Below, in pieces: positions 193-16,965 of a DNA stretch of 29,036 bases. The notes beneath the pieces are model-generated. The model was given only the letters and a program-made list of their open reading frames with translations, was not told where the DNA came from and did not search any database. The DNA comes from a virus. The stretch covers positions 1 to 29,036 of the IMG/VR virus record IMGVR_UViG_3300005511_000053; one strand, 5' to 3'. Each line of letters starts with the position of its first letter. The first letter of the stretch is position 1. Position numbers and translations under genes: made by a program.

Positions 193-1281
193 TCAACCTA
201 GTTTGACCTTCTTGAATTCGGCGCCGCGATTGTTCTCATAAAGGTCAGCAGAGCTATTCGCCAGATGACCCAAAAGCGTCTTGGTATCCACGCCGCCCTG
301 CTCGATATACATGCGCTTGCACAGGCTTCGCAGTTCGTGGAACGTTGGCAGATTCTCTCCTTCGCCGAGTGCCTTCGTCACGTAGTCCGTGAACTTCTGT
401 GTCACAGTGCTGATGGCCATTCTTTGGCCTGGTGAGCTTCTTCCTGTATGCGCCGTTTGGTGAACCATGTACTGACTGACAACGCCCGTGCGTCGGCATA
501 GAGCAATGGCGCCCTTCAGGCTCATCTGCATGGCGTTTGAGTAGAGTTCCAGGGGGATTGCAATCTTCACCATGCCGCGCGACTTCCTGGGCGTCACCAG
601 AAGATACTCGCCGTCCACGTCAGAGAACCTTAGGGATGCAACATCCTCTCGGCGCAATCCGGTAATCATGGCTAGCAGTGTTGCATTGCGAATCCATGGT
701 GGTGCTTTCTGAAGAGCATCCCATACCTTTGAAAAAGTAGCCGCGGTAAATCGCTGTCGAGCAACTTTTGCTTTGTGTGTCGCCGTCATCAAAGCTGGAT
801 TGGTCGTCATGTGCCCCTTGGTGATTGCATCCCCAAAAGCAGATATCAAGACTGAGCGGGCGACTTGTGCAGTGGTTGTGCCACGCTTTTTCTTGATCTC
901 GTCCAGCCCCTCGGCAGTGTCCTTCACAGTCAAGCGGCCCAATGCAAGATCGCCCATCACTTCGTTGATGGCCTTGGACTTTGACCGGTAACTCTTCATG
1001 GTGTTCTCGGCGAGGCCCAAATCCTCCAGCCATTCCTTGAGCCAATCCCGAACAGTCTTGTCCTTGCCCTCCAGCTTGTCTATCAAGCGCGTCTTGCCAA
1101 GCTGCTCAGAAGCCCAGAGATTGGCCTCGATGACTTGGAGCTTCGCGTCAGCAAGAGGAACGCGCCCAATGGCGTCGTATTTCTTCTTGATTGGGTTGAA
1201 CCAAACGTAATAGCCTGGGCGCGACTCCGAAAGGCCGACAGGCCAGTCTCTGCGATACCGCGCGCGTGGACGTGCAGCCAT
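193..1281 (-). CDS. int: Lambda-type tyrosine integrase
   Basis: A 362-aa site-specific recombinase, close in length to lambda Int (356 aa) and alignable along its length. Residues ~1-60 resemble the lambda arm-binding domain, ~75-165 the core-binding domain and ~175-362 the catalytic domain. Catalytic residues are R210 in ITGLRRED, a Lys in the following beta hairpin (K233 or K239), H315 and R318 in FHELRSL, H339 in LLGH and the nucleophile Y348. It integrates and, with Xis, excises the prophage through a covalent 3'-phosphotyrosine intermediate. The ATG shares one base with the xis stop (TGATG), so translation is probably coupled. It is the last gene of the left operon and faces the host junction. 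Confidence 0.95.
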   Translation of the reverse strand: MAARPRARYRRDWPVGLSESRPGYYVWFNPIKKKYDAIGRVPLADAKLQVIEANLWASEQLGKTRLIDKLEGKDKTVRDWLKEWLEDLGLAENTMKSYRSKSKAINEVMGDLALGRLTVKDTAEGLDEIKKKRGTTTAQVARSVLISAFGDAITKGHMTTNPALMTATHKAKVARQRFTAATFSKVWDALQKAPPWIRNATLLAMITGLRREDVASLRFSDVDGEYLLVTPRKSRGMVKIAIPLELYSNAMQMSLKGAIALCRRTGVVSQYMVHQTAHTGRSSPGQRMAISTVTQKFTDYVTKALGEGENLPTFHELRSLCKRMYIEQGGVDTKTLLGHLANSSADLYENNRGAEFKKVKLG

Positions 1282-3189: not shown

Positions 3190-3949
3190 CCGGCCTGCCC
3201 CCCCCCTTGGCGTTCAGGCACATGCTGATGAGGTGCCCATGTCCGTGGTTGGCGTCTTGGCCGCTGGCTCCTTGGAGGCGTTCGAAACTTGCGTCAATGC
3301 ACGGTGCAACGCGCTCGGCAATTCCTTGCCCCGCTTGGCGGCTCGGCGCAGGATGCCCCGACAGGCTGTGGCGCTCAAAAAGTACCGCTGCGGCAGCTCG
3401 CCAGTCTCCAAGACATCCGACAACGAACACACGTCGGCGTCGCTGGGGAACTCCGAAGTACTGAGCGTCAAGAATCCGGTATGCGTACCCATACCCGAGT
3501 TCGCCCAGTCCGGCGAGGAAGGATCCGAAATCACTCGTTTCGTCAGCTTCCCATTCCTGTCCTTCGACCAGATCACTCGGCGGCTGATCGCCGGACCAGA
3601 TGGAAAGGACACCGGGGACGTTCTCCCAAACCACCCACTTGGGCCGATACTTTGCAGCAATCGCAAGGTAGGTAAGCATGAGGTTGCCACGAGGGTCAGC
3701 CAGTCCTGCTCGGAGACCTGCGACGCTGAAGGATTGGCAAGGGGTTCCTCCGCAGAGAAGATCGAGAGTTGCATCTGGCCAGTCCTTGAACTTCGTCATG
3801 TCGCCCAGGTTGGGCACGTCGGGGTAGTGGTGTGCGAGCACAGCGCACGGGAAGGGCTCAATCTCACTAAAACCCCAAGCTTTCCAGCCGAGGGGCTGCC
3901 AGGCGACGGAAGCCGCCTCGATGCCAGAGCAGACGGATAGGAATCGCAT
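2984..3949 (-). CDS. C5 cytosine methyltransferase, N-terminal part ending in frameshift
   Basis: Residues 1-~248 carry the catalytic half of an m5C DNA methyltransferase: motif I (SVCSGIEAAS, AdoMet binding), motif IV with catalytic C71 in GGTPCQS, motif VI (WENVPG, ENV at 109-111) and motif VIII (PQRRRRVFVVG). After the nine-G run at 3198-3206 the frame enters out-of-frame sequence rich in Arg and His and stops at 2984. The intact gene would span 2641-3949, about 435 codons. No cognate endonuclease is nearby, so it would be an orphan phage methyltransferase, probably shielding phage DNA from host restriction. It starts directly after the stop of the preceding gene (TAGATG). Confidence 0.85.
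   Translation of the reverse strand: MRFLSVCSGIEAASVAWQPLGWKAWGFSEIEPFPCAVLAHHYPDVPNLGDMTKFKDWPDATLDLLCGGTPCQSFSVAGLRAGLADPRGNLMLTYLAIAAKYRPKWVVWENVPGVLSIWSGDQPPSDLVEGQEWEADETSDFGSFLAGLGELGYGYAYRILDAQYFGVPQRRRRVFVVGCLGDWRAAAAVLFERHSLSGHPAPSRQAGQGIAERVAPCIDASFERLQGASGQDANHGHGHLISMCLNAKGGGRPDGRGIGDADSYQRGSLWRRSRTDRRGLRRQRGRHGARHATGAGGAHRCDADHAQWGEHASRPQRQERP
3198..3206 (-). repeat. Nine-G homopolymer at the methyltransferase frameshift
   Basis: The minus strand reads AAG followed by nine G and then CAGGCC. With eight G the two halves of the methyltransferase are in frame; with nine they are not. Poly-G runs of this length are classic slipped-strand sites in phase-variable restriction-modification genes, but also common sites of sequencing error. 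Confidence 0.9.
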
Positions 3950-4276
3950 CTACCGTTCTCCTTCGCCCTGCACAGCGGCGCGGGCGGCGATCAGCTCATG
4001 GGCACGCCGATAGAGCGCGGCAGAAATGCTCGTCTCGCTTTCGGCATCACACGACTCTGCAAGGATCTCGCAGAGCACGACGGCCAACGGGTCCACCGCA
4101 TCGCTGGCGCTGTGGGATGGAGCGGCGGCGAGTGCCAATACGGCGCGGCAGATAGCTGGGTAGTTCGGCATCTCGTGCGAGCCGTTCATGAAAACGAAGG
4201 GCCGGCAGAACTCGCGCCATTCAGCGTCGGTCTTGTGCGTCGCCGGGTTAATGGTCACGGTGATGGTGTCAGCCAT
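3950..4276 (-). CDS. Hypothetical phage protein
   Basis: A 108-aa protein starting MADTITVTINPATHKTDAEW. After a short beta-like start, the C-terminal ~65 residues are predicted helical and Ala-rich (ICRAVLALAAAPSH, LAVVLCEILAES). GAGGAG precedes the ATG. It ends immediately before the cytosine methyltransferase start and overlaps the adenine methyltransferase by 8 bp, so it is made with both enzymes. Function unknown. Confidence 0.7.
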   Translation of the reverse strand: MADTITVTINPATHKTDAEWREFCRPFVFMNGSHEMPNYPAICRAVLALAAAPSHSASDAVDPLAVVLCEILAESCDAESETSISAALYRRAHELIAARAAVQGEGER

Positions 4277-10925: not shown

Positions 10926-11214
10926 GTTCTCTCCTAGTGCGCCAATGGCGCGGGTTGGTTAGGAGCAGAGAGAGAAGCGGGCTGGACGCAACCCCAGCGA
11001 TACAACAATGCGGTCCACCGACTCGACGGCGCCTAGGGTGAGGGCTTGGCCCTCCTGTTTCCCGCTTCGTTGGCGTGGTGCCGATTTCCTACACCGCCGC
11101 TTCTCTCTCTGCTCTCCATCCACACCACCCAGCCAACTTGGCTTCCCCCTGTCTCTGCTTCCTGTCCGACTTCGCCTCTCGTGTCGCTAGAGGCTTGGGG
11201 GTTGGGGTGTCGAT
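10926..11214 (-). promoter_or_regulatory. Untranslated leader of the left operon, with long-range stem
   Basis: About 290 bases between the predicted leftward start site (~11214) and the first gene hold no convincing gene. In transcript order there are a hairpin with 6-bp stem GCCTCT/AGAGGC (11194-11174), a short palindrome GCCAAGTTGGC, one arm of an exact 18-bp inverted repeat (11114-11097), the other arm (10980-10963), and the palindrome GCGCCATTGGCGC (10951-10939) just before the ribosome site. No boxA was recognised. Structures are seen; any role in antitermination or translation control is inference. Confidence 0.55.
10963..11114. repeat. Exact 18-bp inverted repeat around 116 bp
   Basis: GAGCAGAGAGAGAAGCGG at 10963-10980 is the exact reverse complement of 11097-11114. 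In the leftward transcript the arms could pair and close a domain of 116 nt. The pairs do not extend beyond 18 on either side. There are no transposase genes or target duplications to suggest an insertion sequence. Confidence 0.85.
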
Positions 11215-11220
11215 GGGATG

Positions 11221-11248
11221 ATTATGCGCGAACGCATGGAAAAGGCAA
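11221..11248 (-). promoter_or_regulatory. Leftward early promoter (PL-like)
   Basis: On the minus strand TTGCCT (11248-11243) and CATAAT (11226-11221) are separated by 16 bp; the -10 has 5 of 6 consensus bases and the -35 has 4 of 6. One operator lies between the two boxes and another touches the -35. The start would be near 11214, giving a ~290-nt leader before the first left-operon gene. Confidence 0.55.
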
Positions 11249-11261
11249 TGAGAAAACGCAT
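11224..11261. promoter_or_regulatory. Left operators, two sites
   Basis: ATGCG-CGAA-CGCAT at 11224-11237 is a perfect 14-bp dyad. ATGAG-AAAA-CGCAT at 11248-11261 has one mismatch. Centres are 24 bp apart, close to the lambda OL spacing. The same consensus recurs three times between cI and cro, so these are very likely repressor/Cro sites over the leftward promoter. Confidence 0.7.
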
Positions 11262-11314
11262 GACCCAAGTGAAACAAAGGGTAAACACCTAGGCCGGACA
11301 GTCGCTGACAGAAC

Positions 11315-11340
11315 GAAAAAAGCCCGCACGGTGGCGGGCT
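11315..11340 (-). terminator. Intrinsic terminator of the lysogenic operon
   Basis: On the minus strand a stem AGCCCGC/GCGGGCT with a 6-base loop (11340-11321) is followed by TTTTTT. It sits 18 bases after the stop of the membrane-protein gene and would stop repressor-operon transcripts before the leftward promoter. Confidence 0.85.
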
Positions 11341-11358
11341 TCGTGGGGCAGATGTGCA

Positions 11359-11778
11359 CTAAGCGCGAGAGACGCCTAGGCCAGCAATCACCCAGTCTAG
11401 GATTTTCCAGAGCAGCATGATTGCAATGCCTACTCCGAGCGCGATTCCAATGGTTCCGGCCCAATGCATCAGGACTTTCTTCCAGTGCTGTTCGGTTTCC
11501 ATGGTGTAGATCTCGCAGGTGTCCCGGTGCTTGGGATTTTTGGCGCAGATATGGCGAAGGATTTCTTCATCCGAAGAGAAGTTCGCTCTGTAGGCGCGAA
11601 GGATCTCAGATGCAGTCGTCTTCATTTCATCTGCATCCTCTGCCGCCACCGAGAAAAGGAAGGTAGTGGCAAGGCTGGATTTACTCGGCGCAAGCGAAGC
11701 GCCTCCAATGATGGTGGCGATCACACCAACGCCAGCCACCACAATGGCCAAGCGTCTGATAGCTTCCCGGAAGTTCAT
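11359..11778 (-). CDS. Two-TM membrane protein linked to the repressor
   Basis: A 139-aa protein with a basic N-terminus (MNFREAIRRL), TM1 (AIVVAGVGVIATIIGGASLA, residues ~11-30), a ~75-residue middle domain with two Cys (CAKNPKHRDTC) that could form a disulfide in the periplasm, and TM2 (GTIGIALGVGIAIMLLW, residues ~108-125) ending in a short tail. The ATG overlaps the lipoprotein stop as ATGA, and the terminator follows. As the third gene of the repressor operon it should be made in the lysogen, a place typical of superinfection exclusion or other lysogenic conversion genes. No family recognised; that role is inferred from position and topology. Confidence 0.75.
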   Translation of the reverse strand: MNFREAIRRLAIVVAGVGVIATIIGGASLAPSKSSLATTFLFSVAAEDADEMKTTASEILRAYRANFSSDEEILRHICAKNPKHRDTCEIYTMETEQHWKKVLMHWAGTIGIALGVGIAIMLLWKILDWVIAGLGVSRA

Positions 11779-12047
11779 TCGCACCTGAAGAGAACTTCAG
11801 CCTCAGGCCATCCGCCCATCGGTTTCGCCTGCGTTTCCTTGACATCGATCACGCGGGCCTTCTTGGGAGCGCAGCTCGTGTTTGCCTCAGCTATAGCGGC
11901 AGTCTTGAGGCTGGATGTAGGCACCAGGAAGCTGCTCCCTTGATGGGTGATCTTCGCTAGGCCGTCCGACAGAGGAACGACGCCAGTGGTGGGGACCGCA
12001 CAGGCCGAAAGCATGGCCGCGGTGGAAGCAGCAATAAACATCCTCAT
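11775..12047 (-). CDS. Small lipoprotein linked to the repressor
   Basis: A 90-aa protein with a signal peptide and lipobox (AAMLSAC, lipidated Cys ~C16 counting from the first Met), then a ~70-residue domain VVPLSDGLAKITHQG, AIAEANTSC and a C-terminal WPEAEVLFRC. The two late Cys probably pair. I know this pattern, ending in PxAEVxFRC, from small proteobacterial lipoproteins of unknown function, so it may be an acquired host-type gene. AGGAG lies 9 bases before the ATG at 12047. It is 13 bases after the repressor stop and overlaps the membrane-protein gene, so the two envelope proteins should be made together in the lysogen. Confidence 0.8.
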   Translation of the reverse strand: MRMFIAASTAAMLSACAVPTTGVVPLSDGLAKITHQGSSFLVPTSSLKTAAIAEANTSCAPKKARVIDVKETQAKPMGGWPEAEVLFRCE

Positions 12048-12060
12048 GAGAGCAATCTCC

Positions 12061-12807
12061 TCAAAGTTTTTTTCCATTCCAGCACCAAACGACGCGCCCA
12101 CGCACTGTGACTGATTGAGATCCGTCCAGCACGTCAACGGTCTTGACTGTGGGATTGTCGCTACTGATTTCGTACTTCCCGTCAAGGCGCTGCCGCACTC
12201 GCTTGATGTAGATGCGGTCATTTGCCTCTAGGACGTATACGCCGTCAATGTCTGGATCCTGAACTCCGCTATCAACCAGAAGGATGTCTCCATCCATGAA
12301 TGTCGGCTCCATGCTGTCGCCATAGCCATGGATAAAACGGAGGTGCCGGATATCGGTCAGAGGCTTTAGGGTGCGAGATACCCATTCTGGCGAGACGGTC
12401 AATCGCCCAACCACCACCTCATCAGGCAAGAGGTGTTCGCCGCGCCCCATGGAGCCCGATTGGGCGAGCACAGGGATGCTCAACGCCTCAAAGCCCGGCA
12501 GGAATCGAGTGCGGGTCGTTTCGGGCGTTAGAGCGGGTTCTGGCGCCTCGTACTGGTCATCAAACCGGGCGAGTCCGCGATCCTGGGCAATCTGAGATGC
12601 CAAGTCCTCGTTGTAGAACGCCTCGGCAGCAATGCCGAAGAACCTAGCCACAGGTTCCATGGTGCTACGGCGCGGCTCAATTGCCTTGCCCGACAAATAC
12701 CTGCTGAGCTTCGACTGAAGCGATTGATCGCCCAGCCTTCCAGCAAGGGAGTTGGGATTCAGGTCGGCCTCGTCTAGCAGACCGCGAAGAAGGGCTCGTC
12801 CATCCAT
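12061..12807 (-). CDS. cI: CI-like repressor with S24 peptidase domain
   Basis: A 248-aa two-domain repressor. Residues ~1-65 form an XRE-type helix-turn-helix (NSLAGRLGDQSLQSKLSRYL), ~66-105 a linker, and ~107-245 a LexA/S24 domain with catalytic S165 in YGDSMEPT and K202 in RIYIKRVR. It should dimerise, bind the ATGCG-N4-CGCAT operators, maintain lysogeny and respond to RecA. The usual Ala-Gly cleavage pair is not obvious: the expected place reads VLAQSGSMG, so self-cleavage is uncertain. No Shine-Dalgarno precedes the ATG, and a -10-like CATAGT ends six bases before it, so the mRNA may be leaderless. Divergent from cro. Confidence 0.92.
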   Translation of the reverse strand: MDGRALLRGLLDEADLNPNSLAGRLGDQSLQSKLSRYLSGKAIEPRRSTMEPVARFFGIAAEAFYNEDLASQIAQDRGLARFDDQYEAPEPALTPETTRTRFLPGFEALSIPVLAQSGSMGRGEHLLPDEVVVGRLTVSPEWVSRTLKPLTDIRHLRFIHGYGDSMEPTFMDGDILLVDSGVQDPDIDGVYVLEANDRIYIKRVRQRLDGKYEISSDNPTVKTVDVLDGSQSVTVRGRVVWCWNGKKL

Positions 12808-12816
12808 GGGCGGACT

Positions 12817-12868
12817 ATGCGCTTTCGGATAATGCGACGACGCATTGCAATTCCATGCTCAAACGCAT
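12817..12868. promoter_or_regulatory. Right operators, three sites between cI and cro
   Basis: Sites are ATGCG-CTTT-CGGAT (12817-12830, one mismatch), ATGCG-ACGA-CGCAT (12832-12845, perfect) and ATGCT-CAAA-CGCAT (12855-12868, one mismatch). The first covers a -10-like CATAGT for cI (12819-12814), the third lies between the -35 and -10 of the rightward promoter, and the second sits between them, an arrangement like lambda OR3, OR2 and OR1. Confidence 0.75.
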
Positions 12869-12873
12869 AAGAT
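12845..12873 (+). promoter_or_regulatory. Rightward early promoter (PR-like)
   Basis: TTGCAA (12845-12850) and TAAGAT (12868-12873) are 17 bp apart, each with 4 of 6 consensus bases. The start would be at about 12880-12881, on or next to the A of the cro ATG, so cro mRNA may have no leader. An operator fills most of the spacer. Confidence 0.55.
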
Positions 12874-12880
12874 ATGCGCT

Positions 12881-13102
12881 ATGAGCGAAACCACCGACCT
12901 GATCAAGCGCCTCACCGAGGCGGGTTTGTCCCAGTCTGAGATCTCTCGACGGACTGGAATTCCCCAGCCTCGCCTTTCGCGATGGGAGAACGGGGAGGCC
13001 CCGGTCGGTGCGGATGACGCACTGAAGCTCTACCACTTGGTGAGCACGGCGCCGGAGTTGCGCAAACCCCGCCGCCCCTCCAAGCAGAAGGCAGAGGCCT
13101 GA
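12881..13102 (+). CDS. cro: Cro-like helix-turn-helix repressor
   Basis: A 73-aa protein starting MSETTDLIKRLTEAG with a clear XRE/Cro helix-turn-helix (LSQSEISRRTGIPQPRLSRW) and a basic tail (RKPRRPSKQKAEA). Divergent from the S24 repressor and first gene of the right operon, it should bind the same operators with a different order of preference and favour lytic growth. The ATG at 12881 is chosen because homology begins there; an upstream in-frame ATG at 12845 lies inside the operator and promoter. No Shine-Dalgarno is present. Confidence 0.88.
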   Translation: MSETTDLIKRLTEAGLSQSEISRRTGIPQPRLSRWENGEAPVGADDALKLYHLVSTAPELRKPRRPSKQKAEA

Positions 13103-16800: not shown

Positions 16801-16965
16801 ATGAAGCAACAGATTCTTTGGGTGGTGGAGTTCCAAAACTGGAGACGCACGCAATGGAGCGTCGGCGAAGCGTGTTTCACCCGGAAGGAAGCGCGCGAAT
16901 CCATGGCCGAGTGTCGCCGTGCTGGCATGCAGACCCGCATCGTCAAGTACATCAGGAGCGAATGA
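16801..16965 (+). CDS. Small basic protein (54 aa)
   Basis: MKQQILWVVEFQNWRRTQWS and onward, ending RIVKYIRSE. AAGGAG lies eight bases before the ATG. A beta-beta-alpha-beta pattern with Trp and Arg residues (WVVEFQN, KEARESMAECRRAG, TRIVKYI) is visible. The next gene overlaps its stop by ATGA. Function unknown. Confidence 0.7.
   Translation: MKQQILWVVEFQNWRRTQWSVGEACFTRKEARESMAECRRAGMQTRIVKYIRSE

Follow-up and report, generated by a model that had tools for sequence, protein, structure and literature searches.

Five inverted repeats in a viral record of 29,036 bases (the window, by which we mean the whole stretch of DNA analyzed) are very probably the OL1, OL2, OR3, OR2, and OR1 operators of a CI/Cro-type lysis-lysogeny switch that would work by the mechanism proposed below, and our confidence in their identity as operators, which comes from sequence, is high. 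The sites would mark the docking place of the proteins that settle whether the phage lies dormant or kills its host. Comparison with related phages establishes their position, fixed spacing, and conservation, their co-inheritance with the HTH and Cro regions, and their overlap with the predicted core promoters PL, PR, and PRM. On these comparative grounds, we regard the overall picture, a conserved operator set with its own specificity in a variant geometry of the CI/Cro-type switch, as real.

The five sites and their genomic setting

A motif scan of the window found ATGCG-N4-CGCAT without mismatch at 11224 and 12832 and with one mismatch at 11248, 12817, and 12855 (Table 1), which confirms the coordinates and mismatch counts given for all five sites in an earlier note on this DNA. 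That note placed OL and OR some 1.6 kb from each other, on either side of the repressor operon, as they indeed are, and had called for a scan of the whole phage; such a scan turned up just two further sites with at most one mismatch, at 16927 and 25061. The motif and matrix scans covered the complete IMG/VR record, that is, 29,036 bases of viral DNA alone and no host chromosome. A second-order Markov model, run 300 times, gave on average 0.09 perfect copies and 2.0 copies when up to one mismatch was allowed, and not one of the simulated windows held three sites inside 60 bp. When two mismatches are allowed, the motif is found as often as expected by chance in the window (24 observed, 24.6 expected), and the signal therefore lies in the clustering of the sites. 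The 16-bp operator is TATGCG-N4-CGCATA. By the family matrix introduced below, OR1 and above all OL2 are weaker than the others, each having one degraded half-site.

Table 1. Features of the window, numbered from its first base; operators and promoters are predicted
Feature	Position	Strand	Description
OL1	11223..11238	.	Core 11224-11237 ATGCGCGAACGCAT, perfect; matrix score 15.6, rank 3; outer edge serves as PL -10 box
OL2	11247..11262	.	Core 11248-11261 ATGAGAAAACGCAT; matrix score 8.9, rank 5, weakest site; 24 bp from OL1
OR3	12816..12831	.	Core 12817-12830 ATGCGCTTTCGGAT; matrix score 19.3, rank 1; over PRM -10
OR2	12831..12846	.	Core 12832-12845 ATGCGACGACGCAT, perfect; matrix score 18.7, rank 2; 15 bp from OR3
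OR1	12854..12869	.	Core 12855-12868 ATGCTCAAACGCAT; matrix score 11.7, rank 4; 23 bp from OR2, inside PR
PL	11221..11248	-	-35 TTGCCT (11248-11243), spacer 16, -10 CATAAT (11226-11221); leftward
PR	12845..12873	+	-35 TTGCAA (12845-12850), spacer 17, -10 TAAGAT (12868-12873); 7 nt to cro ATG
PRM -10	12808..12819	-	CATAGT (12819-12814), then 6 nt, then repressor ATG
PL leader RNA	10926..11220	-	Strongly structured; 18-bp closing stem; fold z -4.9
Intrinsic terminator	11319..11342	-	Ends the repressor operon directly before OL
Accessory gene, repressor operon	11359..11778	-	Reading frame; membrane-protein-like, no family
Accessory gene, repressor operon	11784..12047	-	Small; lipoprotein-like signal sequence; no Pfam match
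Repressor	12061..12807	-	HTH (helices 18-25, 29-39) and S24 peptidase domain
Cro-like repressor	12881..13102	+	PF01381 (HTH_3), 7e-10; recognition helix PQPRLSRW (29-36)
Integrase	193-1281	-	Window gene annotation
tRNA gene	20681-20754	+	Rfam RF00005, 52 bits

The repressor and Cro HTH genes are divergent, reading leftward and rightward, respectively, and genes to the right of the switch include NinB, terminase, portal, and capsid. The S24 domain of the repressor (Pfam PF00717, E value of 1.9e-15; phrog_4) has an intact Ser165/Lys202 catalytic dyad, both residues of which are invariant in 19 aligned proteins. The match of the repressor to HTH_31 is weak and falls under the cutoff for that family; an HTH is present in the AlphaFold model. 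Described earlier as lacking close likeness to lambda CI, the repressor does so by sequence but not by predicted fold. A PDB sequence search with it returned no match; a fold search gave matches to lambda CI, a lambda-186 hybrid, and LexA. The window HTH is a divergent member of its kind, with 20 to 34% whole-protein identity to aligned relatives and named phages, and a search of viral contigs with the repressor N terminus found no match. The recognition helix of Cro, IPQPRLSRWE, is invariant in 12 aligned sequences. In the AlphaFold models, the recognition helices of the two proteins occupy the same positions (residues 29 to 39, around LQSKLSRYL, in the repressor and 29 to 36, PQPRLSRW, in Cro), a match that supports, without proving, a common specificity.

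No close relatives of Cro or the repressor were found in named phages. The nearest named HTHs are those of BPP-1, DVM-2008 PrtR, Alize, UFJF_PfDIW6, APSE, and 683R1, and an operator scan of the nearest-HTH phages gave a clear full array in BPP-1 and one to three related sites in several others. Searches run without a positive control gave no Cro match in 399 genomes from the order of a Xenophilus genome or in 398 from its phylum. We infer the host from S24 relatives in Xenophilus, Pseudacidovorax, Acidovorax, and Comamonas genomes. The accessory gene pair at 11359-12047 (minus strand) would be expressed in the lysogen, and its members are candidates for superinfection exclusion or lysogenic conversion.

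Conservation in relatives and exchange of the DNA-binding module

Relatives were collected by Cro protein similarity, so the motif had no role in their choice. A palindromic 18-mer weight matrix was trained on the 95 bp upstream of cro (the repressor-cro gap) in 29 non-redundant viral contigs, the window being excluded. In the window, the five highest-scoring positions by this matrix are exactly the reported sites, the next score being 7.1; in simulated windows, the fifth-best score averages 6.4 and reaches a maximum of 8.4. Because the matrix was seeded with a generalized form of the reported motif, we also made an unseeded count of all exact palindromes, in which ATGCG-N4-CGCAT was the commonest in OR (7 of 22 loci), compared with at most 2 in control regions.

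Spacing is likewise conserved. The distance between OR3 and OR2 is 15 bp in all 22 non-redundant relatives, and that between OR2 and OR1 ranges from 22 to 26 bp. The OR-trained matrix also recovered an OL pair in every one of the 22 relatives, with the two sites 23 to 26 bp apart and 0.3 to 4.5 kb to the left of cro; no such pair scored below 26.6, whereas the control stretch to the right of cro gave no pair above 9.2. Matrix ranking, promoter overlap, and the conserved layout in relatives thus support the proposal of the earlier note that operators of one specificity lie at PL and PR, and the consensus that it offered is a testable one. Its description of that consensus as new fits our literature search, which found no report of it among the papers returned, but not the recurrence of the word in Bordetella phage BPP-1 and in upward of 20 relatives known from uncultivated viruses.

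Several relatives show features of their own. A possible third OL site, scoring about 11 to 14, lies 19 bp inside the OL pair in L069, L072, L074-L079, L082, and L096. Isolated, well-scoring extra sites lie away from OL and OR in L067 (+1909 relative to cro), L068 (-630), and L104-L106 (+1042) and possibly mark further regulated promoters. Seven loci (L035, L036, L039, and L053-L056) encode divergent repressors of about 165 to 205 amino acids with the same kind of HTH and a short C terminus without a recognizable S24 motif, which suggests the use of the same operators without RecA-type cleavage.

One related locus, L014, is informative about which protein reads the word. L014 and the window share 93% amino acid identity in the S24 domain and 93% base identity along 99 bases of the leader, and their homology is restricted to window positions 11123-11221 (the PL leader) and 12065-12504 (the S24 domain). 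At OL, it stops at 11221, just before the OL1 16-mer, and within the repressor gene, the DNA homology breaks where the HTH domain gives way to the S24 domain, at residue 101. The OL, accessory genes, HTH, OR, and cro of L014 are all non-homologous to those of the window, and the operator word read from its sequence, beside its own leader (OL) and in its own OR, is TAAAC-N5-GTTTA. Since L014 replaces HTH, cro, OR, and OL together, the operators at both ends travel with the HTH/Cro module, and the L014/window pair amounts to a natural domain-swap experiment in which operators 1.6 kb apart were replaced along with the DNA-binding domain. Among 21 loci that share the S24 domain and have another HTH, scanned over 250 bp upstream of the repressor, 19 are without any site scoring 9 or more; L016 and L017 (one sequence present twice) have a single upstream site scoring 14.2 that is not within an array.

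These data bear on an unlikely reading that nevertheless deserves weighing, in which the sites serve Cro in the first place and just a subset is bound by the repressor (or Cro binds only OR3), making an asymmetric switch as in phiKO2 and PY54. It would fit the invariance of the Cro recognition helix, set beside repressor HTHs that are more variable, and it has a precedent in phiKO2, in which CB binds all five operators and Cro only OR3 (PMC4997575), so that binding of Cro to all five sites may fail here. However, OL has no adjoining Cro gene and yet keeps the same word in 22 of 22 relatives, and the repressor HTH, where extracted, is alignable among relatives and is replaced along with the operators in L014.

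Promoter geometry and the proposed mechanism

The operators are interleaved with predicted promoters. The -10 box of PL lies under OL1, that of PR under OR1, and that of PRM under OR3; the inner operators touch the -35 boxes of PL and PR. The outer half-site of OR1, OR3, and OL1 serves also as a -10 box. OR2 overlies the PRM -35 region and touches the PR -35 box. PL is the sole promoter-like site called between 10500 and 13200, and because 0.7 such sites are expected by chance, its prediction leans mainly on the fit to the conserved layout. In 21 of 22 relatives, 5 to 11 nt separate the PR -10 box from the cro start codon, and a CATAGT-like hexamer followed by 6 to 7 nt and a start codon is found in the window and in 20 of 22 relatives. 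Little or no room is left for a ribosome-binding site, and the repressor and cro mRNAs are therefore both predicted to be leaderless.

An Rfam search with the structured PL leader RNA found no family; this RNA could be an antitermination or regulatory leader. We rejected it as a general element of the class, as low fold z-scores occur in some relatives only and the sequence is common to L014 only.

If a leaderless start is assumed, OR2 is centered at -31.5 from the repressor start. Its lambda counterpart is at -42, and the window has no operator close to that position. The 15-bp center spacing amounts to about 1.4 turns, which places OR3 and OR2 on opposite DNA faces, whereas OR1-OR2 and OL1-OL2 (22 to 26 bp) retain the lambda-like face. 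The opposite faces of OR3 and OR2 and the location of OR2 at -31.5 make lambda-type activation of PRM unlikely.

In the mechanism that we propose, the repressor (HTH plus S24 domain) would bind the operators as dimers, occupying at PL and PR the leader-proximal site over the -10 box together with another that covers the -35 box about two helical turns farther upstream, and occupancy of both site pairs would silence early lytic transcription. Cro, with a recognition helix like that of the repressor, would bind the same sites and, at OR3, turn off PRM. DNA damage would lead to RecA-stimulated self-cleavage of the repressor via Ser165/Lys202. Less certain, and drawn from geometry, is the step in which the repressor on OR2 would block PRM instead of activating it: with OR2 over the PRM -35 region at -31.5 and OR3 and OR2 on opposite faces, PRM would be autorepressed. 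Polymerases at PRM and PR would be mutually exclusive, the predicted starts being only about 73 bp apart. We hold PRM autorepression and mutual polymerase exclusion with moderate confidence, and octamer looping between OL and OR is possible.

An exactly lambda-like switch, with PRM activated by CI bound cooperatively at OR1-OR2 and repression stabilized by octamer loops between OL and OR, is distinctly improbable. The spacings of OR1-OR2 and OL1-OL2 are near the 24 bp of lambda OR1-OR2, OL and OR lie 1.6 kb apart, a distance like the 2.3 kb of lambda, and the predicted repressor fold resembles lambda CI, but the shifted OR2 with nothing near -42, the 15-bp OR3-OR2 spacing on opposite faces, the presence of two OL sites and not three, and an OL-cro separation that ranges among relatives from 0.3 to 4.5 kb all speak against it. 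That the sites are chance palindromes, or hairpins or terminators instead of protein sites, has next to no likelihood, for although the two-mismatch count in the window is at chance level, the simulated windows never held three sites in 60 bp, and the conserved spacing and position in 22 of 22 relatives and the enrichment in the unseeded count already contradict it.

Comparison with known switches and implications

The earlier note likened two operators on the left and three on the right to lambda, which was mistaken: the lambda record carries three on each side, and the three-plus-two arrangement is the N15/phiKO2 layout. The immB region of these phages (CB, Cro) resembles the window in having three OR and two OL sites, 16-bp operators, divergent repressor and cro, and OL beyond the repressor, and N15-type three-plus-two operators are bound experimentally by their repressor, CB (PMC4997575). 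Unlike the word of the window, the N15/phiKO2 operator is TA-N10-TA, and the matrix gives scores of -1.5 or lower at the annotated N15 operators; CB is also without the S24 Ser/Lys dyad (PMC4997575), which is intact in the window repressor.

Lambda resembles the window in its divergent repressor and cro, operators over PL, PR, and PRM, S24 repressor of CI fold, and OR1-OR2 spacing, but it differs in its three-plus-three operators of other sequence, OR2 at -42, and an OR3-OR2 distance of 23 bp (15 bp in the window). The matrix had no matches at the annotated operators of lambda and P22, with scattered weak ones elsewhere only. The lambda cI and PaaR2 mRNAs are leaderless (PMC8630535), as predicted for the window repressor, but in the window, the cro mRNA is predicted to be leaderless too. 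The PaaR2/YdaS system of CP-933P in Escherichia coli O157:H7 is a lambda-like switch with a leaderless regulator and OL/OR-like operators (PMC8630535), but its regulator lies inside a toxin-antitoxin operon and its operator word is of the GTTTAGTAA type.

Bordetella phage BPP-1 (cI, Bbp31; L111) has six sites of the window's word, where 0.04 are expected in that stretch; they lie at 2876-2946 and 3897-3951, with three in the interval that separates cI from Bbp31 and the other three past cI, and the BPP-1 record annotates none of them. As the word occupies equivalent places there, it is not unique to the window. None of the papers that our literature search returned describes these operators. 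The BPP-1 CI has a QPT-type recognition helix and a distantly related HTH, with 22% whole-protein identity to the window repressor, and BPP-1 differs from the window in its OR spacing (about 17 and 40 bp) and its three OL sites.

We offer one broader proposal tentatively, holding it with slightly more doubt than belief: that these loci represent a widespread, undescribed class of temperate-phage switch. Such a class would be marked by TATGCG-N4-CGCATA, an invariant 15-bp OR3-OR2 abutment in which OR2 serves two back-to-back promoters as their common -35 operator, and a pair of leaderless mRNAs; mutual polymerase exclusion and autorepression would take the place of lambda-type activation, and the full specificity set of HTH, Cro, OR, and distant OL would be exchanged between phages while the S24 domain stays the same. 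Independently of this proposal, the quantitative matrix describes an operator class that is conserved in more than 20 uncultivated phages and present in BPP-1, so that immunity groups can be predicted from sequence. The geometry, with no activating site at -42 and two predicted leaderless mRNAs, is a testable departure from the lambda model, and the repressor/operator pair is a candidate orthogonal regulator.
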